This document shows, in pieces, positions 36,162 through 54,047 of a DNA stretch of 64,000 bases. The notes below the pieces were generated by a model, which worked only from the letters and a program-made list of their open reading frames with translations, was not told where the DNA came from and made no database searches. Positions within the stretch are counted from its first letter, which is position 1. Every line of letters starts with the position of its first letter. The translations under genes and the position numbers were made by a program. Origin of the DNA: Planctomycetota bacterium (GTDB lineage: Bacteria; Planctomycetota; UBA11346); the NCBI GenBank assembly GCA_014193115.1, contig BJHQ01000004.1, forward strand, positions 1 through 64,000, written 5' to 3'.

Positions 36162-36580
36162 GCAATTGAGGGCTCGCGCAAAAATACGTTGCGCACCTCA
36201 TTGCGGTTGAGCGTCCCGTAGGGACGCAGCGATACCAGCCCGGGGCTTCAGCCCCGGGTAGGGTTCACCGGACTGGGGGTAGTCCCGTAGGGACGGCTGA
36301 ATCTTTTGCGGGCTTCAGCCCGCAGGCGTCGTGCGAAGGGTGACATCATGATACGGCTCAGCCGTCCCTACGGGACTGTCGCCACTTGCCACCATACCCG
36401 GGGTTGAAACCCCGGGCTCATCTCGTGGCGTCCCTACGGGACTCGGCTTGCTGCAAAACGCCTTCAAAGGAGCAACACGCTCAAGTTTTTACGGGGATGC
36501 ATGAGCCGATTGCGAGCCGCCGATGGCTCGCCGTATGTCTCAGTCCCAGTCACCCACCGACCGTAGGGCTGAGGTCTGGT
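36162..36580. repeat. Cluster of seven palindromes in the amt-carB gap
   Basis: Two palindrome types alternate. Type A, GTCCCGTAGGGAC or its complement, is centred in 36211-36227, 36282-36294, 36364-36376 and 36430-36442. Type B, a C/G stem with TTCA or GA loop such as CCCGGGGCTTCAGCCCCGGG, is at 36239-36258, 36308-36323 and 36397-36416. The right half is in reverse orientation: 20 bases at 36281-36300 recur exactly inverted at 36358-36377. It lies between two converging genes, so it could also end transcription. No gene is visible. The last 130 bases show nothing else. Confidence 0.8.
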
Positions 36581-40166: not shown

Positions 40167-41318
40167 TCAACCGCCGGACAGGCCGGTCACCGATCCGGGT
40201 GCCGGATCCCCGGCCGCCTTGGCTTCAAAGCCATCAAGTTTGGCCATCAGCCACCACCAGGCGTTGGCCAGCTTTGCCCGGCCGGCCGCGTTCATGGCGA
40301 CCGTGCTGCCGGATTCGGTCCATTCCTTGGCCAGCACCTCGCCCTGGTCGTCATAGCGCACCCGGCCATCGGGGCCGTGGCTCTGCACTGCGGCCAGATC
40401 GAACAGGGGCTTGCCGAAATGGACGGCGTAATTGCGCACTTGCAGGTTGAACCACGACCGCTGCAAGTTGTCCGCCGCAGTCAGCGGCATGGTCGTCCAC
40501 ACGAAGGCCGTGCCTGGGTGGGACTTTTCCAGCTTTTCCATGGAATCGCGATAAGCGGCGAAGGCGACCCGCGGATCCCGTGGCCAGGGCTGCTGGTCGT
40601 TCTTGGCCAGCGTGTTGCCGGCGCCGGCGCCCTGGACCGCGCCTGGCTCAGGGGTCGCCAGGCCGATCGGGACCCGAGCGGTGACGCTGACGTGGTCGAT
40701 GGCAAAGTTCGGCAGTTCGAGGGGATAAGTGACCGGATCGAGGATCAGGACGTTGCCGATGCGGCGGTAGGCGGTCAGTTCCTCGACGAACAGGCCTTCC
40801 AGCTTTGAAGAGGTGAACCGCACATCCATGGTCGCCGAATACTGCGTGTAGCCGGTTTCGATGCGCCGGCCGCTCGGGACATCGTTGGCATCGGACTGGA
40901 CTTGAGCAATCGCCAGCTTGGGCAGCACATCCACCAGGTTGGCGGCGATGCTGTCCAGGCGAGCGGTCAGCTTATTGGTGCCGCCGGCAGCGAAACGCCC
41001 CACGCCACCGCCGTTGGCGTACCAATCGGCCTTGGGGCTGGTGGCGGAACGCAAAGCGAAACGCGGGTCTTTGCCTGCCAATTCGTCAAGACCCTGAGCC
41101 AGCGCCTGATGCTGGCTGGGATAGGCCAAGGCCACCGCCCGTCCGCGGATGGCGGCCAGGGTTGGCGCCGGCAGCTCAGCAGCAGATCCAGCGGTGTGGT
41201 CAGCGAAGATAATCTTCACCGCGGCGCCGGCGGGCACCGGCCTCTGGTTCTGCTCGACAGCGCCAAGAGCGACGCAGGCCAGCACGCTTGGGCAGAGGAA
41301 GGCAAGGCGCTTGATCAT
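40167..41318 (-). CDS. Exported SGNH-hydrolase-like protein, catalytic His apparently lost
   Basis: This 383-residue protein starts at ATG 41318. A signal peptide covers about 1-20 (Leu-Ala-Phe-Leu-Cys-Pro-Ser-Val-Leu). The C-terminal third resembles exported SGNH/GDSL-like proteins of PVC bacteria: Trp-Thr-Thr-Met-Pro-Leu-Thr near 279, Leu-Phe-Asp-Leu-Ala-Ala-Val-Gln-Ser-His-Gly-Pro-Asp-Gly near 316, and a final Trp-Trp-Trp-Leu-Met-Ala-Lys-Leu. Where the family has a Gly-His-Leu-Asn motif with the catalytic His, this protein reads Ser-Gly-Ser-Thr-Val-Ala-Met-Asn, so it may be inactive. The assignment was made by eye. carB is downstream on the same strand. Confidence 0.5.
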   Translation of the reverse strand: MIKRLAFLCPSVLACVALGAVEQNQRPVPAGAAVKIIFADHTAGSAAELPAPTLAAIRGRAVALAYPSQHQALAQGLDELAGKDPRFALRSATSPKADWYANGGGVGRFAAGGTNKLTARLDSIAANLVDVLPKLAIAQVQSDANDVPSGRRIETGYTQYSATMDVRFTSSKLEGLFVEELTAYRRIGNVLILDPVTYPLELPNFAIDHVSVTARVPIGLATPEPGAVQGAGAGNTLAKNDQQPWPRDPRVAFAAYRDSMEKLEKSHPGTAFVWTTMPLTAADNLQRSWFNLQVRNYAVHFGKPLFDLAAVQSHGPDGRVRYDDQGEVLAKEWTESGSTVAMNAAGRAKLANAWWWLMAKLDGFEAKAAGDPAPGSVTGLSGG

Positions 41319-41467
41319 GGAAGGCTCACAGAAGGCGGTGGGCGGAACCGAGGCAGGTTCCATCACAGGGGTGTTCGCATGATGACGGCAACACCGTCAT
41401 GGGAGGTCTGAGGGGGCGGTCAGGTACGACATCGGCTCATACACCCTATCGATAAATATTAATGTCA

Positions 41468-44086
41468 TCATAGATTCGATTCGATCTCGTCGAACAGGAT
41501 GATATCAGCCTGGACCACCACCAGCACTTTCAGCTCGGTCTCCTGCCGTCCATTGGTCGAGAACAACCGGCCGAGGAAGGGAAGATGGCTGAGGAAGGGC
41601 ACCCCGGCATGGGACCGGGCGCTTTCGCCGTTGGTCAGGCCAGCCACCACCATCGAGCCGCCGTCGGGGATGGTCACCGAGGTCCGGGCGGCCTGGTAGA
41701 TCATCTGGGGAATGAGCAGGGGGGCGGTGTTGCCGATGGCCTGTCCGGCGGGAGCGCCGACGTTGCCACCGGGGAAGGGATTGTTCGGGCTGAGCGGCGC
41801 ACCGAACCGGCGCCACCCTCCGACCCGGGTGTGGGTCGGCTTCAGGGTCATGGTGATGTACTTGTTGTCGGCCGAGGCGATGCCCTGCACGTCGAGGACC
41901 GTACCATAGGACAGCACCGAGACCACCGGATCGAACTGGCCCTGGACGATGTCGTAGTCGGCCACATAGGCCTGCTGGTTCATGTGGACGATGTGGGCCT
42001 GCTGACCGTTATAGATGGTCGTCGACGGCTCGAAGATGATGTTGCCGCGCCGTTCGTATTCCACCGCCTTGATCACTGCTGAAGCATACAAATTGGTGGT
42101 GATCTGCCAGGTCTGGGTCTGGAACTGGAGGCCATCATTCGCACCAGGGTTGGGGAGCGAATTGCCCGTGGTGTACGAAGGCACCTGGTTGTTGACCACG
42201 CCGCCGGTGAGGATCTGAGTGCCAGCATCGCCAAAATAGAAGCCGAGATCGGTGGCCTGTCCGGTCGCCGGAGGCAGGGCCGGGGTCACGCCCTGGCCGG
42301 GCAGCGGAACGCTACCGGCTCCGCCCGGACCCGATCGCGGGTTGCCCGAGAAGTTCTGCCAGTTCACGCCGATCTGCTCCAGAGCCGAATTCTCGACGGT
42401 CAGGAACTTGCACTTGATGTGGATCTGCTTGCCGCGCTGGGCGCGCAGGGCTCGGAGCAGTTCCTTCACCTGCTTGTGGACACCCGACACGTTGGTCACG
42501 ACCAGCGAGCCATTGTATTCCGATGGCGGGCTGACCCCCGGCGCGGTCCACGAATTCGGTGACACCACCCGCTGGATGATGTCGATGAAATCCTGGCTGG
42601 TCGGCGGGGTCGCGTTCTCGATCGGCGGCAGAATCTTGGCCGCCGCCGTGCCCGGTTGCGGAACTTCGAGGTCAGGACCAGGGAAATTGGGCACCGAGTG
42701 CATCAAGTCGCGGATGTCGTACAGCTCGGTGACCAAGGCGCCGCGGGCGCCCTCGGCGTTGGTGATGTAGATGGCCTCGTCGCGCAGGACGTAGGTCAGC
42801 TGGGTCAGCTTCATGATATAGTCGAGGACGAAGCGCAGCTTCATCCGTTCGACCTTCAGGGTCACCGGCGGCGGACTGGCGGCCAGCACCCGCGGATCGG
42901 TGATGATGTTGACCCCGGTCACCTTTTGCAGGAACTTGATGACCTCGTCGATCTGCTGTTCCTGGAAGTCGAGAGTGACCTCCTGCTCGAGCTGGTTGTT
43001 GATCGACTTGACCCAGGCCGCCTCCTGGGCGCCACCACTCTCGCGGCCGGAACCGCCGGACGGCAGGGTGCTCGCAGGATCGAGGGTGAAGCGGATGATC
43101 TCGGTCTGGGGCAGCATCGCCTTGCGGATCGACTCCGACAGCTGCTGGTGCTCCTCGTCCCAGCGATCGGCGGTGATCTGACGCAGGTAATCGTGGCGTT
43201 CGCGCCGGCAGCGGGCGAGCAGGTCGGACGCCCGCACCTCGGCTCGGTTCGATTTCAGGATCTGCTCGCAGAGCAGGATCGCCCGATCGTAGTCCCGGCG
43301 CTGGCGGGCGCGTTCGGCCCGGGACAGCTGGGCGTCGATCTGCTCGCGCTCGCGTTGCAGGCTGGCGGCGCGCAACTGCTGTGACCGCTCGGCGGCACTG
43401 CGGTTGCGCTCGGCCTGTTCGGCCAGCTCGGCTTTGCGCCGACGCTGGCGGGCCTCCTCGGCCAGGGCCTGGGCTTCGCGCAGCCGGGTTTCACGGCTGG
43501 GCTCAGCGAACGGCAGGGATTCGAGTCGGATCGCGGCCTGCTCAAAAGAGCGCTCGGCGGCATCGAAGTCGCCTGCATCAAGATGCCGTTGACCCTGCTC
43601 GACCTTGGCCTGGGCTTCACCCATCAGCAGCTGCTGTTTGACCGCCAGTTCGTCGGCGGCGCGTTCACCGGCCAGGCCACCGGTGTCCGGGGCGACGCCG
43701 GCCATGGCCCGGGCCTTGTCGAGATCCTGGCGGTACGGCTGATGGTCCGGACGCCAGTCGACCGCGCGTTGCAAATGGTCGATGGCCTCGCCGAGCCGAC
43801 CGGCATCGCGCAAGCGGATTCCCTGATCGTGATGGAAGGACGCCGCCGCCAGCCGCTGGTCACGCAGAGTCTGTTCCTGCTTGAGGTAGTCTTGCAGCGC
43901 GGCCTCGGCGGGGTTGCCGGCCGGCGCAGCTGGCGTCGGCGTCGCTGCAGGACTTGGCGCCGGCGCCGGCGCCGGAGCGGGTGGCGTCTCGTCGGCCGCA
44001 TGCAAGGCCAGACCGAGCAGGCTGGCCGAAAGGAACATCGTCCGGCCGGACAGGCGGACAGCGGAAAGGCTCGGGAATGGGATCAC
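41468..44086 (-). CDS. Secretin-like pilus outer-membrane protein, third of three paralogs
   Basis: This 872-residue protein starts at GTG 44086, overlapping the previous stop by 4 bases. A signal peptide (about 1-32, ending Leu-His-Ala-Ala-Asp) and a Pro/Ala linker come first, then TPR-like repeats (about 60-150), a long charged coiled coil (about 180-330), N0/N1-like domains (Val-Thr-Leu-Asp-Phe-Gln-Glu-Gln at about 370), and a secretin beta-domain. The secretin signature is Val-Pro-Phe-Leu-Ser-His-Leu-Pro-Phe-Leu-Gly-Arg-Leu-Phe near 832. It lacks the Tyr-Pro-Glu-Asp-Trp block and the glycine-rich loop of its two paralogs, so it is the most divergent of the three. Confidence 0.85.
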   Translation of the reverse strand: MIPFPSLSAVRLSGRTMFLSASLLGLALHAADETPPAPAPAPAPSPAATPTPAAPAGNPAEAALQDYLKQEQTLRDQRLAAASFHHDQGIRLRDAGRLGEAIDHLQRAVDWRPDHQPYRQDLDKARAMAGVAPDTGGLAGERAADELAVKQQLLMGEAQAKVEQGQRHLDAGDFDAAERSFEQAAIRLESLPFAEPSRETRLREAQALAEEARQRRRKAELAEQAERNRSAAERSQQLRAASLQREREQIDAQLSRAERARQRRDYDRAILLCEQILKSNRAEVRASDLLARCRRERHDYLRQITADRWDEEHQQLSESIRKAMLPQTEIIRFTLDPASTLPSGGSGRESGGAQEAAWVKSINNQLEQEVTLDFQEQQIDEVIKFLQKVTGVNIITDPRVLAASPPPVTLKVERMKLRFVLDYIMKLTQLTYVLRDEAIYITNAEGARGALVTELYDIRDLMHSVPNFPGPDLEVPQPGTAAAKILPPIENATPPTSQDFIDIIQRVVSPNSWTAPGVSPPSEYNGSLVVTNVSGVHKQVKELLRALRAQRGKQIHIKCKFLTVENSALEQIGVNWQNFSGNPRSGPGGAGSVPLPGQGVTPALPPATGQATDLGFYFGDAGTQILTGGVVNNQVPSYTTGNSLPNPGANDGLQFQTQTWQITTNLYASAVIKAVEYERRGNIIFEPSTTIYNGQQAHIVHMNQQAYVADYDIVQGQFDPVVSVLSYGTVLDVQGIASADNKYITMTLKPTHTRVGGWRRFGAPLSPNNPFPGGNVGAPAGQAIGNTAPLLIPQMIYQAARTSVTIPDGGSMVVAGLTNGESARSHAGVPFLSHLPFLGRLFSTNGRQETELKVLVVVQADIILFDEIESNL

Positions 44087-46482
44087 AGTTGGGCCTCCAG
44101 AGCGTCGTAATCGACGATCGTTGCAGTGGCGAGGAGATAGAACTGCGTCCGCTGGGACCAGCGGGCGCGTTGGCCGAACAAGCGGCCCAGGAAAGGAATG
44201 GTGCCGAAGAAGGGGACCCGGGTCGCAGCCTGCTGCTCGATGGTCTTGCCCAGGCCGCCAATGAGCACCGTGGCGCGGTCTGGGACCGCCTTCAGGGTGG
44301 TCGAGCCGGAACGCACCTGACGATTGACCAGGTCGAGCGGGAAAGGGACCGGCGGGCCGACTTGCTGGCCGTCTTCGCCGGGAAGCACCCGAGGCGCGAG
44401 CATCGTCTCGCTCGACCAAGCGACATCGGTGATGGTCGGCGACACTTCCAGGGTCACGGTGCGGCGGTCTGCCGAGATCAGCGGCTTGATGTCGATGCCG
44501 GTGCCAAAGGTCAGGATTTCGATCCGCGGATCGAGGTTGTTGCCGACGATGTCGTAGTCGGCGATGTAGGCGAACTGGGTGCCGAAAAAGGTCGAAGCGC
44601 GCACCCCGTTGACGGTGGTGACATCGACCTCGGCCAGGACGGTGCCCCGTTTGGTGCGTTCGACCGCAGTCAGAATCGCGCTGAAATCAGCATTGCGCAG
44701 CATGGTGCTCTGCAGCACCAGCCCGGTTCCGGAGGTCGCCGGTGCGGGCGGATCGATCGCCGCTCCGGGAAGCGTGTTGCTGGTCAGGCCCTGCCAGAGC
44801 AGCGAACTGGCGGCGCGCGAGAATCCGTAACCGGTGGGAGTGGCCAGCAGGCTGCCCGCCAGGTTGTTCCACTGGACGCCGATCTCCTCGATCAGGCCGT
44901 CATCCAGGATGAGGGAACGCAGATCGATCCGCACCTGCAGGCTGGCAGCGCGTTCCTGGGCGCGGAGGAACTGGGCGATCAGCCGTTGGGTCTCGACCGG
45001 GGCGGTCACCACCAGCAAGGTGTTGCGGACCACGATCGAATTGGCTGGATCCTCCCAGACCTTCGGCATCACCGAGCGGCGGATGGTGTCGACCAGATCA
45101 TCCGGAGTCAGCCCCTTGGCGGCTGCGGCTCCCGGATCGTTCGCGCCGAAAAGCTGGAATCCGCCGCCGCCCCCACCACCACCTGCGCCACCGCCAAACC
45201 CGCCTTGGACGTTCAGGGTCTGGTCCTTGGCCGGGAAGACCGCGGCTCCGGCGTCATGGACTCGCAGCACGGTGAGATCCGCCGGCGGTTTGCCCACATA
45301 GACCGCACCATCGGCGATGGCCCAGTTGGTCGCCATCAACGTGGTCACCCAGCCGATGGCGTTGGCCAGGGTCATGTCAGTCGCCGCCAGCGAGACTGGA
45401 CGGTCGCCGCTGGCCACGACCTCAGGGGCGATGATCAGGTTGATCCCACCTTGGGCGGCGAGGTTGCGCAGCACGGCCGCGCCATCCTGGTTGTCTGCAG
45501 AAAATGTGACCCGGATCGAAAGCGCCCCCATCAGCCGCTCGCGCCATTCCTCGGCCGGAGGCAGGTCGAGCAGATCGTGCGATGAGGCGCCGCGGCGCTG
45601 CTGCCAATCTTCGGGATAGCGCGGACGGCCATCGAAACCGCTCGGTATCAAGGACCGTTCAATCTGCTCGGCGACCTCTTGGCGGAGCAGTCGCCGGCGC
45701 TCGTCAAGATCGTGCCGCCGAGCGGTGTGGACCGCCTCGAACAATTCTGCGAAGAGCTGGGCGACGCGCTGGTCGTCTGGGAAATCCGAGCGCATCTGCC
45801 GGCAGCGGGCCAGGGCGAGCTCGTCCAGGCCGCGCCGATGGAGCTCAAGGATCCGCGACAGGCGTTCATCCACTCCTGCCCGTTCCCCTGCCAGTTCACC
45901 TTTGCGTCCTGACCCGGCTTTCGCGACCGCGCCTGCCCGCCCTTTGGCGCCAGCTTCGGCGGCTTCGCTACGGGAAGCGGCTTCCCACGAGCTTCGGCGG
46001 GCAGCGAGCTCGGCCGCCAGAGCCTTCGCGGCGCCGCTGTGATCGGCGGCGATCAGCCGGGCTTCTGCTCCGGCCGAGACCGCGGCTGCGGCTTCGGACC
46101 GGCCTGACGCAGCCAACGATTCGGCGTGCAAGGCGGTGACCCGGGCCTCGGCGATGGCCGCCTGTTCCGCCACCGTGTCCCGGTCTTCAGGGGATCGATC
46201 GGCTGGCACCTTCGCCTTGTCCGAAAGCACCAGGTCCACCTGTGCAATCCGATTGGCCAGGGCCGCATTGCCGGGAGCGAGCTTCCGGGCGCGCTCCAGA
46301 ACCGCTGCGGCTTCGGGCCAACGTCCAGCCTGTGCGAGATCGCGCGCCTGGTCCAGTGCGGCGGTGACCACCGCCCGGACCTCGGCTTCCGACGGTGCAG
46401 CGTTCGCGGAACCGTCCGGTTCCGCTGCGACGAAGCCGCTGGCCAGGGCCAGGGCCGCCAATGCCGCACGCCAGCCGATCAC
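44083..46482 (-). CDS. Secretin-like pilus outer-membrane protein, second of three paralogs
   Basis: This 799-residue protein starts at GTG 46482, overlapping the upstream stop by 4 bases. A signal peptide (about 1-20), a TPR-like segment (Ala-Gly-Arg-Trp-Pro-Glu-Ala-Ala), an Ala/Glu-rich coiled coil and a Tyr-Pro-Glu-Asp-Trp block near 290 precede the N-domains. A Gly run (about 420-440) then a secretin domain follow, with Ala-Tyr-Ile-Ala-Asp-Tyr-Asp-Ile-Val-Gly-Asn-Asn near 645 and Val-Pro-Phe-Phe-Gly-Thr-Ile-Pro-Phe-Leu-Gly-Arg-Leu-Phe near 757. It should form or join a gated outer-membrane ring. Confidence 0.87.
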   Translation of the reverse strand: MIGWRAALAALALASGFVAAEPDGSANAAPSEAEVRAVVTAALDQARDLAQAGRWPEAAAVLERARKLAPGNAALANRIAQVDLVLSDKAKVPADRSPEDRDTVAEQAAIAEARVTALHAESLAASGRSEAAAAVSAGAEARLIAADHSGAAKALAAELAARRSSWEAASRSEAAEAGAKGRAGAVAKAGSGRKGELAGERAGVDERLSRILELHRRGLDELALARCRQMRSDFPDDQRVAQLFAELFEAVHTARRHDLDERRRLLRQEVAEQIERSLIPSGFDGRPRYPEDWQQRRGASSHDLLDLPPAEEWRERLMGALSIRVTFSADNQDGAAVLRNLAAQGGINLIIAPEVVASGDRPVSLAATDMTLANAIGWVTTLMATNWAIADGAVYVGKPPADLTVLRVHDAGAAVFPAKDQTLNVQGGFGGGAGGGGGGGGFQLFGANDPGAAAAKGLTPDDLVDTIRRSVMPKVWEDPANSIVVRNTLLVVTAPVETQRLIAQFLRAQERAASLQVRIDLRSLILDDGLIEEIGVQWNNLAGSLLATPTGYGFSRAASSLLWQGLTSNTLPGAAIDPPAPATSGTGLVLQSTMLRNADFSAILTAVERTKRGTVLAEVDVTTVNGVRASTFFGTQFAYIADYDIVGNNLDPRIEILTFGTGIDIKPLISADRRTVTLEVSPTITDVAWSSETMLAPRVLPGEDGQQVGPPVPFPLDLVNRQVRSGSTTLKAVPDRATVLIGGLGKTIEQQAATRVPFFGTIPFLGRLFGQRARWSQRTQFYLLATATIVDYDALEAQL

Positions 46483-49007
46483 TGCTTGGCTTCCTCCCCG
46501 CCGAGTTCGAGGATCCGGCCGGTGATCAGGTAGCTCAACTGGCGGCTTTCATCGTAGATGCCGTTGCGGCTGAACAGCCGACCGAGGAACGGGATGTGGC
46601 TCAGGAACGGAATGCCCATGTGGGTCCGCTGGCGCATGGCGTTGGTGTAGCTGCCGACCAGCAGGCTGGCCCGATCGGGCAGCAGCGACGTGCTGCGCAA
46701 GGCCCGGGTCTGGCTGTTGGGCAATTCCAGCGGGAAGGGCTGCTGACCGAGGATCGCCGCGCCATCACCAGTCTGGAGGACCCGGGGTGCCACTAGCTGT
46801 TCGGTGAACGATCCGCCGAATTCGGTCGAGGTCGGATTGACCTCAAGGGTGATGAACTTGCGGTCCTGGCTGATGATCGGCTTGATGTCGATGGTATTGC
46901 CGAAGCTGAGGATCTCGATCCGCGGATCGAGGTTGTTGCCGACGATATCGTAATCGGCGATGTAGGCGAACTGGACCAGGAACGAAGCCGTGGCGCGCTG
47001 ATTGTTGAAGCAGGTGATGGTCGGGTTCTGGAGGATCTGCTGGTCGGATTCCTCTTCGACCGCACTGATGATCGCATTGAGCTGATCGACATTATAGTAA
47101 TTGAACGGACGCAGCGAGGATTCGAGCACCATGCCGCGGGTCGAAGGGTTGTACGACCGCGAGTTCGCGGCATAGGCGCTATTGAGCAGGATCGTCTGGT
47201 TGCCCGGCAGGTTGTTGAAGGTCGAGCCGTTGTATCCAAACGTGTCGTTCAGGCGGGTATAGCCGTTGGACGTCGAGCTGCCGATGATGCCATTGGGATT
47301 ATTATGGTATTCGACGCCAATTTCTTCCCAGTAGCCCTTGCGGGTATCGAGCATGCGGACGTCGATATTGACCTGCAAAGCGCGACGGTTGCGCATGTCG
47401 GTGAGCAGGCGTTCGACCTGGCCGTGGACCTCGGGGGTCTGGCTGACGAACAGGATCGCGCCCTGGCGCTGTTCGATGCTGGTCCCCTTCGCCGGATCCC
47501 AGGTACCCTTGGCGACATTGTCCTGGATGAAGGTGATCAGTTCATCAGGGGTTGGACCGGTCTTGGGTGCATCAGCGCCCGCGCCGCCACCGCCGAACAG
47601 GGCGAACCCGCCGCCGCCACCACCACCAGTGCCGCCGCCAAAACCCATGTCCTTACCTGGGAAATCCGGGATGGGCATGGTCAGGTCGGTGACATCGTAG
47701 ATCTTCAGTACGATCGAACCGACGACGATGTCGTTGCTGATGAAGATCGCCTGATCTTGCAGCGCGTAATGCAACTGGGTGAGTTCGAGGATCCATTTCA
47801 GCGCGTCGCCGAACTTCATGTCCTTGACCTTGAGGGTCACCGGCGGCGGGCTGTTGGCCAGGGCGGTTGGCGAGACGATGATGTTGGCGCCGGTCACCTG
47901 ACGCAGGAACGCGATGACCTCTTCGAAGGGCTGCTCCTGGAAATCCACCGTGATCCGCTGTTCCAGCCGATCGGTCAGCTGCTGACGCCAGAGCTCGACC
48001 TGGTGGGCGCCGAGTTCGGCGGTGGTGCGCAGGCTGCGCCGCTGCCAGTCCTCTGGATAGAGCAGCAGATCGTTCTGCGGGATCAGCGAACGGTGGATGT
48101 CTTCCTGGACCCGGGTGACCGCTTCGAGCCGGTCCTCGCGCAGACGCTTGTCGAAGGCGACGTGGCCTTGGCGGCGGGCATCCAAGTACAGTTTCCGCGC
48201 GTCTTCACGGCGGCGGTCGAGTTCATAGGCATTCCAGGCGTCGACTTCAGCCCGGCGGAAATCCTTGCGATCATAGGCCGTTTTTGCCCGGCGCAGGAGC
48301 TCATCGACCTTGCGGGCCAGCGATTGCTCCTGCAGCTCGGCGGCTGCGCGGGTCCGGTCCAACGCATCTTTGCGGGCTTTCTCCTGATCGCGCAGCGCCT
48401 GCATTTCGGCTCGCGCCCGGGCTTCGCGGCGCAGGCCGGCGACCTCGGCCGGCAGACTGCCCCAGTCGGTCAGATCCGATCCGGCCTTGATCGCTACTTC
48501 GACCCGATCGAAATCGAGTTCAGCGCCTGCGAAATCGCCGGCTTCCATCTTGCGCTTGCCATTGTCCCGGAGCGCGGTGAGCCGCACCACGACCTCTTGG
48601 TGGTGGACCTGTTGCTGGCTTGAGAAGCGTTCCGCGGTCACTGCGACCGATGATGGGTGGTCGCCCAGCGTGGCGCGGACCTCGGTGCGCAGCTTCCGTG
48701 CCCCGGCATGGTCGGGGTCGAGTTCAACCGCCCGTTCGACCAGTTTGAGCGCGGTCGCCCGATTGCCTTGGCGAAACTGGGCAAGGGCTTCGACGAACAG
48801 CGCATCAGCCTCGACCGCGGCACGGTTGGCGGCAGTGCCCGGCTTTTCGCGATCAGCCTTGAGCTGGGCGACTTCAGCGGGAGGGGCCGGCGGCGCGGTC
48901 TGGGCGGGCACGTCCTCAGCCAGCAGCGGAAGGGCGACGGACCAACCGCTGGCGACCAGCAGCAAGGTCGGGGCCAGCGTCGTCGGGGGCAATGTGCGCA
49001 AGCGCAT
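46479..49007 (-). CDS. Secretin-like pilus outer-membrane protein, first of three paralogs (Amuc_1098-like)
   Basis: This 842-residue protein starts at ATG 49007 with GGAG 9 bases upstream. Signal peptide about 1-30. A TPR unit (about 65-110), a charged coiled coil (about 150-290), Arg-Ser-Leu-Ile-Pro-Gln-Asn-Asp then Tyr-Pro-Glu-Asp-Trp near 315, an N0/N1-type region (Ile-Thr-Val-Asp-Phe-Gln-Glu-Gln-Pro-Phe near 355), a Gly-rich loop (about 460-490) and a secretin domain with Ile-Pro-Phe-Leu-Ser-His-Ile-Pro-Phe-Leu-Gly-Arg-Leu-Phe near 800. It is shaped like the Amuc_1098 family of Akkermansia. A 330-base gap separates it from the genes upstream. Confidence 0.88.
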   Translation of the reverse strand: MRLRTLPPTTLAPTLLLVASGWSVALPLLAEDVPAQTAPPAPPAEVAQLKADREKPGTAANRAAVEADALFVEALAQFRQGNRATALKLVERAVELDPDHAGARKLRTEVRATLGDHPSSVAVTAERFSSQQQVHHQEVVVRLTALRDNGKRKMEAGDFAGAELDFDRVEVAIKAGSDLTDWGSLPAEVAGLRREARARAEMQALRDQEKARKDALDRTRAAAELQEQSLARKVDELLRRAKTAYDRKDFRRAEVDAWNAYELDRRREDARKLYLDARRQGHVAFDKRLREDRLEAVTRVQEDIHRSLIPQNDLLLYPEDWQRRSLRTTAELGAHQVELWRQQLTDRLEQRITVDFQEQPFEEVIAFLRQVTGANIIVSPTALANSPPPVTLKVKDMKFGDALKWILELTQLHYALQDQAIFISNDIVVGSIVLKIYDVTDLTMPIPDFPGKDMGFGGGTGGGGGGGFALFGGGGAGADAPKTGPTPDELITFIQDNVAKGTWDPAKGTSIEQRQGAILFVSQTPEVHGQVERLLTDMRNRRALQVNIDVRMLDTRKGYWEEIGVEYHNNPNGIIGSSTSNGYTRLNDTFGYNGSTFNNLPGNQTILLNSAYAANSRSYNPSTRGMVLESSLRPFNYYNVDQLNAIISAVEEESDQQILQNPTITCFNNQRATASFLVQFAYIADYDIVGNNLDPRIEILSFGNTIDIKPIISQDRKFITLEVNPTSTEFGGSFTEQLVAPRVLQTGDGAAILGQQPFPLELPNSQTRALRSTSLLPDRASLLVGSYTNAMRQRTHMGIPFLSHIPFLGRLFSRNGIYDESRQLSYLITGRILELGGEEAKQ

Positions 49008-49338
49008 GGGACGGTCTCCGGCGCAGCGGCGGACGGACATGGCCCGGCCGCCGGCGTTCAGCGAGCATGATCCGTGACCGGATCCGTGCAGGGGATGCGC
49101 TGACCATGCTGTGATTTCGTGTGACTCACGACACGAAGCGAAAATCAAGGACAACTGATCGCACAGAGATTTTGGCGGTTCGCACGCGGGAGCCGTTCCA
49201 CGCACCTGCACGGCACGCTGCCGAAGGCTGCGTGGCGCTTGTCGAAGCCCAGTCGGTGGGCTTTGGGCGCGGCATGGGAACAGCCCGGCAGCGCGAGGAA
49301 GCCGCTCCGAACCTGGCTAGGGAGCCCGCGGTGTTGGG
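49008..49338. other. Gap between the pilus assembly genes and the secretins
   Basis: I see no gene in these 331 bases. A 17-base direct repeat (GGCTAGGGAGCCCGCGG) at 49315-49331 and 49337-49353 straddles the stop codon of the upstream gene, so its last residues are a small tandem duplication. The gap may hold a separate promoter for the three secretins; I find no convincing -35/-10 pair. Confidence 0.4.
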
Positions 49339-51159
49339 CTAGGGAGCCCGCGGGGTCGAAGCCCGGTCCGGCACCGCCCGGTCCGGTGCAGCCTTGGGCG
49401 TGGGCGGTTTGTCGACCGGAGCGGCCTCTGCGGGTTTGACCGGTTCGGGTTTGGGCGCCGGCGGTTCGTCTGGGTACCACCTGGGCTTTTTGTTGACGTC
49501 GTCCCACCACAGCAGGCGACCGTCACCGAAGACGAGATAGTGCGTCTTCGGAGGGAACAGGTCTAATTCCGGTCTGGCCTTGATCAGCTCAGGCAGCGGA
49601 CCGTCGGTCGGCTCGAATTCCTTGGGCCGGGGAGGCTCTTTGCCATAGGTCTTGAAAATTGCGGGATCTGCCAGGAATTCATCGAGCTCATTGTAACCGT
49701 CCTGATATTGCCAGGGCCACACTTTGAAGATTCCGGTCGAGGTCGGCCGGGGAATTTTGTCGAGCTGGACCATCGGCACCGGTGGCGAATTCGGGGAACG
49801 CGGGTTGCGCAACGTCGCTTCACGGGACGGACGCTCATAAGGTTTGACCTCGAAATCCTTCTGCCCCGGCGCCCCGGGCCGGCTCTTCAGACGGACCTCC
49901 CAGTACCACACCCGTCTGGCATCGGATTTCAGCGCTTCGAGTTGGAACGGCGTGTCGAGATCCACCGGTTTCTTCTCGCCGGTTTTGAACGGGTTGGGGA
50001 CGGCGGTGTCCTTTTTGCCGACCGCTTCGCCGGGCTGGACCTTGAAGACGAAGGGTTCGGTCCACTTGGCTGCGCCGCCGGCGGGGTCGATCAATTTGCG
50101 GGTCACCAGGATCTCGGCGAAGTCAGTGCCGGTTCCTTGGGAGACGCGTTTCAAGGCGAAACGGATGTCGGCGGTGGCGGTGACGGCCGTCTCTGGGCCC
50201 CAGAGGCTGTAATACAATCGCTCAGACGCGCTGAGCTTGACCCAGGTCGGCGGTTTTTCGACTGGCGGCAAGGTGCCAGCGAGCAACGTCTGCTCGGGCT
50301 TCAAGGTACCAGCGGCAACGGCTTGCCGTTCCCGCCGCAACCGATCGGTGAGCAGCGGCCAGTTCAGGTTGTTGTCGGCAGATTCGGTGAATCGCCCGCG
50401 CCAGACCAGGATCGTGGTCGCCAGGCGCGAGGAGCGGGCCAACTGGTCATCGCTCGGATTCGGCGGCAGGCCGGTGGCGCGCACCACCAGCCGGGCGCGA
50501 AACTGGTGCTCGCTCCACGGTTCGATGCAATCGACCGAGAGTTTTCCGTCTTTGGGGAGCTTGGCCAGGGGAATGAATCCCTCGCCGTTGGACAGTTTGG
50601 ATTCGTTCAGCGGCATCCACTGCCCGCCGAGCAGTTTGACCTCCACTTGAATCCCGAGGACGCCAGCGGTGTTGACCACTTCACCGCCTTCATTGCGCGC
50701 CCAAGTCACCGAACGGGCATCGCTGTGGCGCTTGTCCGCGGGGCGGACGGAATCGGGAAGCGTGATGGTCAGCGCCAAGGTCCCGACCCGGTCCTCAGCG
50801 TGCACCGTGACCGGAAGGACCTCGTACAAATACAGGAACAGCCGATCGAGGGTCGACGGCGGCAGGTCGGGACGGGCGGTCAACCAGGCGAGCGCTGCCG
50901 GAGCCGGCACCGCGCCGGAGAATCGCTCCTTCATCCGGCCGAGGTGATCTGCGGCGGGCTTGAGCACCGGAGGACGGACGGACAACGCGGTCTTCTCGAT
51001 CTCGCTCCATTCCCGGGTCAGGGGTTCCAGGCGCAAATCCGCACCGGGCCGGATGGTCTCGTCGGTGAGCACGGCGTGGACTTGCCAGACGCAGAACACG
51101 GCGATGGCGCCCACGGCAAGCTTCTCGCCATGGGCGATCAGGAATTCGGTGGCGTTCAT
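49339..51159 (-). CDS. Large membrane-anchored pilus-operon protein (Amuc_1099 position)
   Basis: This 606-residue protein has one N-terminal membrane segment (about 14-33, Leu-Ala-Val-Gly-Ala-Ile-Ala-Val-Phe-Cys-Val-Trp) with most of the protein outside it. The body is beta-rich with an Ig-like or fibronectin-like feel; the last 50 residues are Pro/Lys/Ala-rich and disordered. No catalytic motif is seen. It starts at ATG 51159, overlapping the upstream stop by 4 bases (ATGA). In the Akkermansia locus the gene between Amuc_1100 and the secretin is Amuc_1099, and this holds the same position; homology is inferred from order only. Confidence 0.6.
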   Translation of the reverse strand: MNATEFLIAHGEKLAVGAIAVFCVWQVHAVLTDETIRPGADLRLEPLTREWSEIEKTALSVRPPVLKPAADHLGRMKERFSGAVPAPAALAWLTARPDLPPSTLDRLFLYLYEVLPVTVHAEDRVGTLALTITLPDSVRPADKRHSDARSVTWARNEGGEVVNTAGVLGIQVEVKLLGGQWMPLNESKLSNGEGFIPLAKLPKDGKLSVDCIEPWSEHQFRARLVVRATGLPPNPSDDQLARSSRLATTILVWRGRFTESADNNLNWPLLTDRLRRERQAVAAGTLKPEQTLLAGTLPPVEKPPTWVKLSASERLYYSLWGPETAVTATADIRFALKRVSQGTGTDFAEILVTRKLIDPAGGAAKWTEPFVFKVQPGEAVGKKDTAVPNPFKTGEKKPVDLDTPFQLEALKSDARRVWYWEVRLKSRPGAPGQKDFEVKPYERPSREATLRNPRSPNSPPVPMVQLDKIPRPTSTGIFKVWPWQYQDGYNELDEFLADPAIFKTYGKEPPRPKEFEPTDGPLPELIKARPELDLFPPKTHYLVFGDGRLLWWDDVNKKPRWYPDEPPAPKPEPVKPAEAAPVDKPPTPKAAPDRAVPDRASTPRAP

Positions 51160-52232
51160 GGGCTGCCTTGGGCAGGTGCGGCGGACTTGCTGAAGTCGAG
51201 CATCAGCAGTTCGATCTTCATTTCCGCCCGTTCATAGGGGACATCCTTGCGTTCGCCGATGGCGAACGATTCCCGGCGGCTGATCGTGCCGCCAAGCACC
51301 ACGACCATCGGCTGGTCGTCTCCGACCTGCTCCAGGGCGGCATTGGCGGCGAGCAAGGCGGGAAGGGCTCCTTGCAGGGTGATGGTAAAACGGATGCCAT
51401 CAGCGTACTGATCGACGCCGGCGCCGAGTTTCACCGGCCCGCCGCTGGCCCATTCCAGTTTGCTCAGCGCCGGCACCAGCCCGGTCGCGACCTGAGCCGC
51501 CGCCGGCATGGTGGTGGGGATGACCGGATTCGCCGCCGTCGCGCCTTGGGCTGACAGCAGACGAGCGGCAAGGGCCGACAGCACCCGGAAGCGCGGCGTC
51601 AATTCCTCCCAATCCTTTTCGCCAGGAAGTTCCGCCCCGCGGGTATGCAGGCCGACCAGTTCGCGCACGGGGTGGTTTTTGAAGTCGGGTCCGCTGACGG
51701 TTGGCGCAGCGGCGCCGGCCGGCGCCGCTGCGCCGGAACCGCTTGGTTCAGGCAGAATCAACGCTTTCTTCGCATAGAGTTGGGCAAGCAGTTCAGCGGT
51801 CTGGGCTTCGTATTCGTTGTACCATTCCAGACGGCTGCTGGTCTCTTTCACTGGTTTGTGCAATATGATGCTGCGCCCGGACAGGTAGCCTTTGATCTTC
51901 GCCAGCTGTTCATCGTAGCTCGCGACCTGGTTGTTCAGCACCGGCTTCCAGCGGTCGGTGATCAGGAACTTGGTGGTGAGCTCTTTGCGCTGCTTCTCGT
52001 CCTCGGGATCGAAGACCCCGACCGGACCGCGATCGCCCAGGCTTTTGGTCAAGATATAGGAGCGGTCTCTCACTTGCTGGTATTTGATGGCCTGGTTGTC
52101 GAGGTCGGTTTTGACGTCCTGGGCGGTCCGACCGGTTTCGTCGGTCGGGACCAGGACCACGAAGCAGATGATGACCGCGAGCAGGATGGCGCCGGTGATG
52201 ATCCAATAGAGATGCGGCTTGATCTTTTCCAT
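51156..52232 (-). CDS. Amuc_1100/PilO-like pilus-assembly protein
   Basis: This 358-residue protein has a short cytoplasmic start (Lys-Ile-Lys-Pro-His), one membrane segment (about 9-28, Trp-Ile-Ile-Thr-Gly-Ala-Ile-Leu-Leu), a long helical stretch (about 35-125), an Ala/Pro linker near 165-180 and a C-terminal alpha/beta domain (about 255-345) like the ferredoxin-like fold of PilO/PilN. Size and position match Amuc_1100-type proteins, which sit after a PilM-like gene in Akkermansia. It begins 3 bases after the PilM-PilN stop. It probably forms an inner-membrane platform with that protein. Confidence 0.7.
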   Translation of the reverse strand: MEKIKPHLYWIITGAILLAVIICFVVLVPTDETGRTAQDVKTDLDNQAIKYQQVRDRSYILTKSLGDRGPVGVFDPEDEKQRKELTTKFLITDRWKPVLNNQVASYDEQLAKIKGYLSGRSIILHKPVKETSSRLEWYNEYEAQTAELLAQLYAKKALILPEPSGSGAAAPAGAAAPTVSGPDFKNHPVRELVGLHTRGAELPGEKDWEELTPRFRVLSALAARLLSAQGATAANPVIPTTMPAAAQVATGLVPALSKLEWASGGPVKLGAGVDQYADGIRFTITLQGALPALLAANAALEQVGDDQPMVVVLGGTISRRESFAIGERKDVPYERAEMKIELLMLDFSKSAAPAQGSP

Positions 52233-52235
52233 GGC

Positions 52236-54047
52236 TCAGGTCCCGGCCGGCAAATGGCAATGGAAGGTCAGGATCTGCACCGGCTGTTTCCGCTCCTGGA
52301 TGATCGGCTTGGTGTCCCCGGTCTCGGGGTCGATGTAGTTCGGGTCGAGGAAGTGGAAGGTATCGACGGCGTCGGTATTGCTCGCCATCTGGACCTTGCC
52401 CGCGAACAGGGTCGGCGAGCGGACGATCTCGGCGATGGCGGCCGGCGTCGGGATCGCCAGCAGGCGTTTTTCCAGCTGCTGGCGGGCATCGGTGAGCCGC
52501 TTGGTGTCCGGCACCCGCAGCACCACGGTCACGACCCGCTCCGCCGCCAGGGGGCTGAAAGGTCCGTTGGCGGAAGGGTCCCACGGAGGAATCTCGATCT
52601 TGTCGAGGTAGACTCCTTGCAGGGCCGGGTCGCCGCCGTCCTCGGTGCGTTTGCCGGTTTCGCCGACCTGGCCGTATTCGCGGATCAAATCTTCGACCAC
52701 GCCGATCACTCCGGCGTAGACCGCCTGGGTCAGGCCCTGCTGCCGGCCATAGGGCGCGAAGTGCGCCAGGGTCACGGCCCGCGGTCCGACCAGTTCGAGC
52801 ACCGCGCGGGAGGATTTCTCGTTCTTTTCGTTGGTTTCGGCGTATTCCTTGATCTTGCTGATGACTTCCAGGTTGTCGCGCATCGCCGCCTGGGTGACCA
52901 GATAGGTCGTGATCGCGGTGGCGGACAGCATCAGGATCGCAGCGATCGGAGCCCAGCGTTTCTGGCGCAAGACCTGCTCGATCCGGTCGCGGTTGGGCAT
53001 CAGGTTGACCGCTGACAGTCCGGCGCCGACACCCTGCAGCGCCAGACCCATCGCCACGCCGAGGGATTGCAGGTCGTGGAGGAAATGCTCGCGCTCCAGC
53101 CCCTTCGCGACCTGGATCTTGTCGAGATCTTCCAGGATGTTGACGGTATACCGCATGCGATCGGCGAAATGCTCGGGCAATCCCGGCAGCTTGAAGGTCG
53201 AACCGCTGATCACCAGGTTTTCCAGCTTCGCGCCGGCGTTCTGGTTCTTGTAGAAGCCGATCCGGCGCTGGACTTCGCTGATCAGCTCAGCCAGGGTCGG
53301 CTCGATGACTTTCAGGACTTTTTCGGCCTGGCCGCTGGTCGCGACATCGCGTTTCAGGCGTTCGGCCTCGTCGAAGCTGTTGAGCCGGAATTTCTTCTGG
53401 AAGACCCGGGTGATATCGTTGCCCGACACCGACAGGGAAGCCATCGCCAGCTGATCGCCCTTGTAGAACACCAGATCGGTATTTTCCGCGCCGATGTCGA
53501 GGATGATGATGGTCTCATCGCCGGGGAAGACCTGATCGTAGCGGACGAAGTTGTAGAGGGCCAGCGATGAGACCGACAGGCCGACCAGGTTGATCCCAGC
53601 GCGCTTCGATTTCGCCAGCAGATCGTTGATGATCTCTTTTTTCACCGCGAACAGGGCGACATCGTAGGACGATCCGTCGGCCCCCGGCGACATGTGGTAG
53701 CCCCACTCCACCGCGTCGAAGTCACCTGGAATCTGCTGGCGGGCTTCGAGCTCGACCATCCGGCCCATGGTCTTGGGATTGATCACCGGGACGTTGATCG
53801 TGCGTGAGAACACCTGCCGGCCGGACAAAGCGGCGAGCACCGGCGTCGAGCCGAACTCCTCGCGCAAGGCCATCTGCTCGAGGGCACGGACCACGGCTTC
53901 TTCGCGGTCGCCCTGTTCAGGCACCACGATCGGCTCGATGGCATAGGCGTGCACCGTCACCTTGTCGTCGGCGGTGCGGATCAGCTTGGCGGCCTTGATG
54001 CTGGAATGCCCTATGTCGAGGCCCCAGGCGACCGGATGGCGTTGCAT
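52236..54047 (-). CDS. pilM: PilM-PilN fusion, pilus inner-membrane platform (Amuc_1101-like)
   Basis: This 603-residue protein joins two roles. Residues about 8-345 are an actin-like PilM domain (Trp-Gly-Leu-Asp-Ile-Gly-His-Ser-Ser-Ile-Lys near 8-18, Ile-Leu-Asp-Ile-Gly-Ala-Glu-Asn-Thr near 182, Ile-Ser-Gly-Ser near 280). Then Ala-Val-Asn-Leu-Met-Pro-Asn-Arg leads into a membrane segment at about 364-388 and a PilN-like periplasmic domain. In standard type IV pili these are two proteins, PilM in the cytoplasm bound to the PilN tail. It is the first gene of the pilus operon. No PilB, PilC or PilT gene lies in the window. Confidence 0.85.
   Translation of the reverse strand: MQRHPVAWGLDIGHSSIKAAKLIRTADDKVTVHAYAIEPIVVPEQGDREEAVVRALEQMALREEFGSTPVLAALSGRQVFSRTINVPVINPKTMGRMVELEARQQIPGDFDAVEWGYHMSPGADGSSYDVALFAVKKEIINDLLAKSKRAGINLVGLSVSSLALYNFVRYDQVFPGDETIIILDIGAENTDLVFYKGDQLAMASLSVSGNDITRVFQKKFRLNSFDEAERLKRDVATSGQAEKVLKVIEPTLAELISEVQRRIGFYKNQNAGAKLENLVISGSTFKLPGLPEHFADRMRYTVNILEDLDKIQVAKGLEREHFLHDLQSLGVAMGLALQGVGAGLSAVNLMPNRDRIEQVLRQKRWAPIAAILMLSATAITTYLVTQAAMRDNLEVISKIKEYAETNEKNEKSSRAVLELVGPRAVTLAHFAPYGRQQGLTQAVYAGVIGVVEDLIREYGQVGETGKRTEDGGDPALQGVYLDKIEIPPWDPSANGPFSPLAAERVVTVVLRVPDTKRLTDARQQLEKRLLAIPTPAAIAEIVRSPTLFAGKVQMASNTDAVDTFHFLDPNYIDPETGDTKPIIQERKQPVQILTFHCHLPAGT

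Follow-up and report, generated by a model that had tools for sequence, protein, structure and literature searches.

A pilus-type operon of Planctomycetota carries three different secretin genes in tandem, here termed S1, S2 and S3, and the S1 and S2 of one genome have lineage-specific residues in common in two hairpins of the outer barrel only, a pattern that is new. The explanation we consider best, and would expect to hold or fail about equally readily, is a family-wide pilus module whose secretin was duplicated twice, whose three products would work as one unit, and in which S1 and S2 would belong to the same barrel. The operon comprises six ORFs on the minus strand, from 54047 to 41468 of the window, the 64,000-nucleotide stretch of DNA that was analysed:

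52236..54047, minus strand: pilM-type gene, 603 aa (PF11104, E=2e-34; hydropathy)
51156..52232, minus strand: Amuc_1100-fold gene, 358 aa (AlphaFold2 model, pLDDT 74, and Foldseek)
49339..51159, minus strand: large anchored gene, 606 aa, in the Amuc_1099 position (conserved in the family; hydropathy)
46479..49040, minus strand: secretin S1 (P0003; PF00263, E=7e-19, 68.5 bits; 18-row alignment)
46479..46482, minus strand: S1-S2 junction, GTGA (read in the sequence)
44083..46482, minus strand: secretin S2 (P0002; PF00263, E=2.4e-21, 76.5 bits)
44083..44086, minus strand: S2-S3 junction, GTGA (read in the sequence)
41468..44086, minus strand: secretin S3 (P0001; PF00263, E=1e-20, 74.4 bits; 18-row alignment)

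Upstream of the operon is a gene for a protein containing five S1 RNA-binding domains, and downstream one for the large chain of carbamoyl-phosphate synthase; since these genes are not conserved around the operon, the conserved unit is the six genes. A promoter and terminator scan gave no signal above chance. Directly downstream of S3 lies a 399-aa ORF (window 40167-41366) without a Pfam match; the one relative in which it still adjoins S3 is the sister genome, and the ortholog there weakly matches the S1/S2 profiles. Further along, at window 36397-36443, is an Acido-Lenti-1 RNA (RF01687), which scores 40.9 bits where the gathering score is 37.

An earlier note on this DNA had described the first gene as a PilM-PilN fusion, of which the PilM half stands. 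Its product carries a PilM domain at aa 9-340, matches the PilM structures 3jc8 and 2ych by profile, and continues into a membrane helix at ~366-385, by hydropathy, and a further tail. Against NF045709, the Amuc_1101 family, it scores E=2e-58 and 199 bits, where the cut-off is 650. No PilN domain was matched in the tail by any Pfam or NCBIfam HMM, and the tail is PilN-like by position only. The description of the second product as Amuc_1100-like is borne out by its predicted fold, which comprises an N-terminal membrane helix, further helices and a ferredoxin-like C-terminal part, and is PilO-like. The ten best PDB matches of this model in Foldseek are all Amuc_1100 crystal structures (6lad/6kny/6laf; E 9e-6 to 9e-5), followed by PilO; sequence searches, including Pfam and NCBIfam, gave no relative and no support for that name. 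The 606-aa protein has a membrane helix at its N-terminus by hydropathy, and Pfam, NCBIfam and PDB searches with it returned no match.

That the last three genes encode genuine and different secretins was confirmed, each matching PF00263 at E<1e-18 and all alike passing its curated cut-off of 27.5 bits; an independent whole-genome scan recovered the same three and two others, on contigs C12 and C3. S1 probably starts at the ATG at 49040 or 49007, rather than at 49211 where its ORF opens, and S3 starts at the GTG at 44086, inside the S2 stop, not at 44419. Each of the three has TPR-like repeats at its N-terminus; in S1 the TPR/helical region is followed by N0, a KH-type N domain and the secretin barrel. 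The AlphaFold2 model of S2 (pLDDT 75.8) is a full secretin, with 40 secretin chains matched by Foldseek at E down to 4e-18. A barrel fold with periplasmic N domains is thus assigned to S2 by model, and to S1 and S3 by sequence alone. All three are predicted to form oligomeric outer-membrane rings.

The 4-base GTGA overlaps that had been noted at 46482-46479 and 44086-44083 are real. At S2-S3, GTGA is found in 21/21 loci (the window and 20 related loci); S1-S2 is joined by GTGA or ATGA in most relatives, with another junction or a short gap in five deep lineages. Overlapping junctions are a usual sign of translational coupling, and the GTGA overlaps suggest that S1, S2 and S3 may be translated in a coupled manner, with linked output.

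The triplet family comprises 23 genomes of uncultured Planctomycetota, the relatives being MAGs. The order S1-S2-S3 is common to its loci, S2 and S3 being present in 22 genomes and S1 in 20. Gaps in the triplet coincide with contig ends, and no clean loss or reordering was seen in 22 genomes; orthologs diverge to ~40% identity within the family, and all three secretins are still kept. An apparent frameshift, possibly an assembly error, splits S1 in G005 and S3 in G016. S2 orthologs were found only in the triplet family among 392 sampled genomes of the phylum, the best score of the S2 profile outside the family in that sample being ~1e-123. In the sister genome G001, of the same genus, the triplet and pilM are on different contigs, with the same neighbour downstream of the triplet as in the window and with other genes after pilM-1100-1099. 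Because in this one assembly the triplet has moved from pilM as a block, it behaves as a unit. Two observations on the margins of the family may be added. An extra S2-type secretin (L132:8332-10809, G015:C91) lies off the array and is sister to the S2 of its own genome, G015; and two contigs titled Candidatus Kuenenia stuttgartiensis (L105, L121) cluster with the triplet family and are probably mislabelled MAGs.

Phylogenetic analysis places each paralog in its own clade. In a tree with 33 other secretins of the phylum, S1, S2 and S3 each form one clade (100 SH-aLRT), and their joint clade has an SH-aLRT of 98, rising to 100 in a second tree that adds the extra S2 copy of G015. Inside the triplet clade S1 is sister to S2, and the longest branches are those of S2; this inner order is less certain since the trees are quick ones and the branches long. 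For the closest complete pair, dN/dS is ~0.13 for S1, 0.27 for S2, 0.14 for S3 and 0.11 for PilM, by a simple counting method that is rough at such distances. S3 is the most conserved paralog and S2 the fastest evolving, yet intact. Given the separate clades, purifying dN/dS and family-wide conservation, S1, S2 and S3 are old paralogs under purifying selection, not decaying copies, and the earlier reading of old paralogs under separate selection agrees with both clades and dN/dS. The same evidence rules out recent or decaying copies: the secretin domain is present in all three proteins, and no relative has one intact gene beside decaying ones. Tandem duplications are common and S2 evolves fast, as would be expected of neutral duplication without functional division, with copies kept by chance or dosage; we consider this very improbable, since the duplications are old, selection is purifying on all three (0.13/0.27/0.14), the clades are separate and no clean loss was seen.

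The earlier note had contrasted the triplet with the single secretin of the Akkermansia locus. Many other loci do have a single one, yet the triplet is not the only multi-secretin locus, as pairs occur in several other planctomycete families. The PilM loci of families f15, f88, f30, f5, f83 and f96 have one or two secretins, paired copies being adjacent or ~6-9 kb apart. In f5 the two copies are each other's sister, a further clade unites the pairs of f83/f96, and f15, f88 and others have an older A/B pair. Since these pairs fall elsewhere in the tree, secretins have multiplied several times in Planctomycetota. The tight triplet was seen only in the 23-genome family, some contigs stopping within the second copy (G323, G229). 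Adjacent pairs in the PilM loci L126, L163, L051, L141, L137 and L133, from several other planctomycete families, are separate duplications. The PilM loci of one further planctomycete family hold two giant secretin ORFs, 1815 and 2622 aa in length, that include very long additional regions (L072:3876-9323 and L087:6535-14403, in G080 and G145).

If the copies diverge independently once duplicated, S1 is expected to be no closer to the S2 of its own genome than to that of another. We compared S1-S2 identity within genomes with that under shuffled genome pairing across 17 genomes. Over the whole length, identity is 0.300 within a genome and 0.273 when shuffled (z 9.2). The excess is weaker and diffuse for S1-S3 (z 4.7) and smaller again for S2-S3 (z 2.5), and in both it probably includes composition effects. 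For S1-S2 the excess is highest in two stretches of 30 residues, positive in 17/17 genomes each, which were first spotted by eye in alignments and then tested on the same genomes:

46893..46982, minus strand: S1 hairpin 1, aa 691-720 (reading from 49052; z=7.9, 17/17 genomes)
44497..44586, minus strand: S2 hairpin 1, aa 633-662, partner of S1 hairpin 1
46713..46802, minus strand: S1 hairpin 2, aa 751-780 (reading from 49052; z=8.5, 17/17 genomes)
44320..44409, minus strand: S2 hairpin 2, aa 692-721, partner of S1 hairpin 2

The S2 model shows these stretches as two hairpins that link four long strands (629-725) and have their turns at one and the same end; element order and alignment to GspD, rather than coordinates, suggest that this is the outer-membrane end. 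Within both hairpins S1-S3 and S2-S3 are flat, S3 having no hairpin matching, and the S1-S2 excess is absent from the most conserved lip segment (S1 811-840). The signal persists when the window's genus is left out and when each close pair is reduced to a single genome. No hairpin peak appeared for the separated A/B pairs of other families, in one set of 15 genomes (closely related, with little power) and another of 8.

Gene conversion accounts for part of this pattern. In hairpin 1, S1 and S2 are identical over stretches of 32 and 40 nt in the window and G001, and the lineage-specific residues within them differ between the two; small gene conversions have therefore occurred. Some of the matching may therefore result simply from the two genes being tandem neighbours. 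For hairpin 2, the codon identity of shared residues exceeds the shuffled value by +0.085, against +0.071 in the rest of the gene; with the rise so near that of the gene remainder, recent conversion does not explain this hairpin, where older conversion followed by synonymous change could be the source. Recent gene conversion as the sole cause was rejected, given the near-background synonymous divergence of hairpin 2 and a signal that stays when the window's genus is removed. Long exact runs in G003 and G006 were likewise discarded, as artefacts of a too-early S2 start. In a sister-pair test of S1-S2, concerted changes outnumbered crossed ones by 64 to 28 (p=2e-4) and clustered in the hairpin stretches; for S1-S3 the counts were 41 concerted and 17 crossed, spread out.

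The earlier note had left a mixed ring, three alternative channels and a stacked structure as equals; that S1 and S2 are matched in two barrel hairpins while otherwise ~30% identical now favours placing them in one ring, neighbouring S1 and S2 strands being the simplest functional reading. A hetero-oligomeric secretin, one ring in which S1 is joined by S2, and perhaps by S3, with coevolving hairpins in contact, is what we tentatively propose, aware that it may well be wrong. To our knowledge, secretins of known structure are homo-oligomers, and the PDB secretin entries matched here have 12-15 chains of one sequence. This precedent speaks for three channels, each a homo-oligomer of its own, that share one inner-membrane assembly and are used for different pili, substrates or conditions, as do the conserved features that each paralog has of its own. 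The hairpin matching would then reflect gene conversion, of which tracts do exist, plus shared outside selection on exposed loops, e.g. from phages or the same membrane. Planctopirus limnophila offers a parallel, with three pilQ-like genes (Plim_0794, Plim_3284, Plim_3688), each dispensable in laboratory culture (PMC11958385), which are no tandem array since their locus numbers are far apart. We nevertheless regard separate channels as rather unlikely, because independent loss or reordering is missing from 22 genomes, the gene overlaps point to fixed co-production, the operon has one PilM/1100/1099 set only, and the most conserved segment shows no such matching. A shared operon and conserved linkage, for their part, are also consistent with three separate rings of one machine.

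The place of S3 is harder to assign: as it has no hairpin matching, only genetic linkage argues for its inclusion in a shared ring. S3 differs from S1/S2 in the hairpins, and the N-terminal helical domains differ in conservation among the three, that of S3, with its TPR repeats, being the best kept. Together with the enlarged periplasm reported for planctomycetes (PMC11131199), these differences would suit a stacked or nested arrangement, S3 forming one ring and S1/S2 another in a longer channel across a wide periplasm. Since each of the three has what an outer-membrane secretin has, namely barrel region, lip motif and hairpins, none resembles a spacer confined to the periplasm, and we judge stacking improbable.

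Under the explanation we prefer, the operon would supply a planctomycete type IV pilus-type machine with its inner-membrane, periplasmic and outer-membrane module, which shares its general build with the Akkermansia Amuc_1101-1098 locus. The secretin gene of the operon would have been duplicated twice in tandem before the family radiated, and S1, S2 and S3 would be made together by coupled translation and act as one unit. S1 would most likely stand beside S2 in the same barrel, the matched hairpins touching each other in a mixed ring; S3 would either contribute a third type of subunit to it or form a separate ring coupled to it. We infer that the operon builds a pilus and that the three secretins belong to one complex; overall, the chances for and against a joint S1-S2(-S3) complex seem to us about even.

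The earlier note had seen no motor gene in the window; a genome search found a pilT-pilB-pilC cluster on the operon's own contig, ~61 kb away (C4:114.7-118.9 kb). Its PilT scores above the cut-off, and its PilB-like ATPase and PilC/GspF-like protein just below their equivalog cut-offs; this motor is a putative partner of the triplet operon. The genome has further ATPases on C1 and elsewhere, 22 N-methyl (pilin-type) signatures, a second PilM on C2, and PilN/PilO-like ORFs adjoining a PilQ-type secretin on C12. The C2 and C12 genes point to at least one further, more classical system.

A literature search found no description of mixed or tandem secretins, or of such a triplet. Secretins are usually treated as single-gene homo-oligomers, and the family-wide triplet, with two members matched in two barrel hairpins, makes a mixed ring a concrete, testable idea. 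If true, it would change the view of secretin assembly, gating and symmetry, and would give planctomycetes a distinct envelope machine. Even with separate rings, the triplet raises the question of why one pilus module keeps three outer-membrane channels.

Among known systems, the type IVa PilQ of V. cholerae (PDB 6w6m) shares the secretin fold, N domains, gate and barrel, and is a C14 ring of a single protein (PMC7545093). Unlike that PilQ, S1-S3 have no AMIN domain in a Pfam search. The planctomycete loci of f15, f88, f30, f5, f83 and f96 are of the same kind, in locus and in secretin; unlike the triplet, their pairs derive from other duplications, and the two sets tested lack the hairpin matching. 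The Akkermansia locus runs, as we take it, from a PilM-type gene through Amuc_1100 and an anchored protein to one secretin at the end. The likeness to Amuc_1098-1101 of Akkermansia muciniphila extends over the PilM-type gene, the Amuc_1100 fold, the anchored protein and a secretin with a helical/TPR N-terminus, there PilQ (Amuc_1098), an abundant outer-membrane protein with TPR repeats (PMC4960237). The present locus differs in having three secretins, not one, in its phylum, and in scores far below the Amuc equivalog cut-offs: all three secretins match NF042912, the Amuc_1098 family, at 48-98 bits against a cut-off of 750, and membership in NF042912 and NF045709 was rejected on these cut-offs. 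The comparison with Akkermansia thus survives for an Amuc_1098-1101-type machine and not for a verrucomicrobial host; because the host belongs to Planctomycetota, in the same superphylum, the resemblance to Akkermansia lies in a related machine rather than in a shared phylum.
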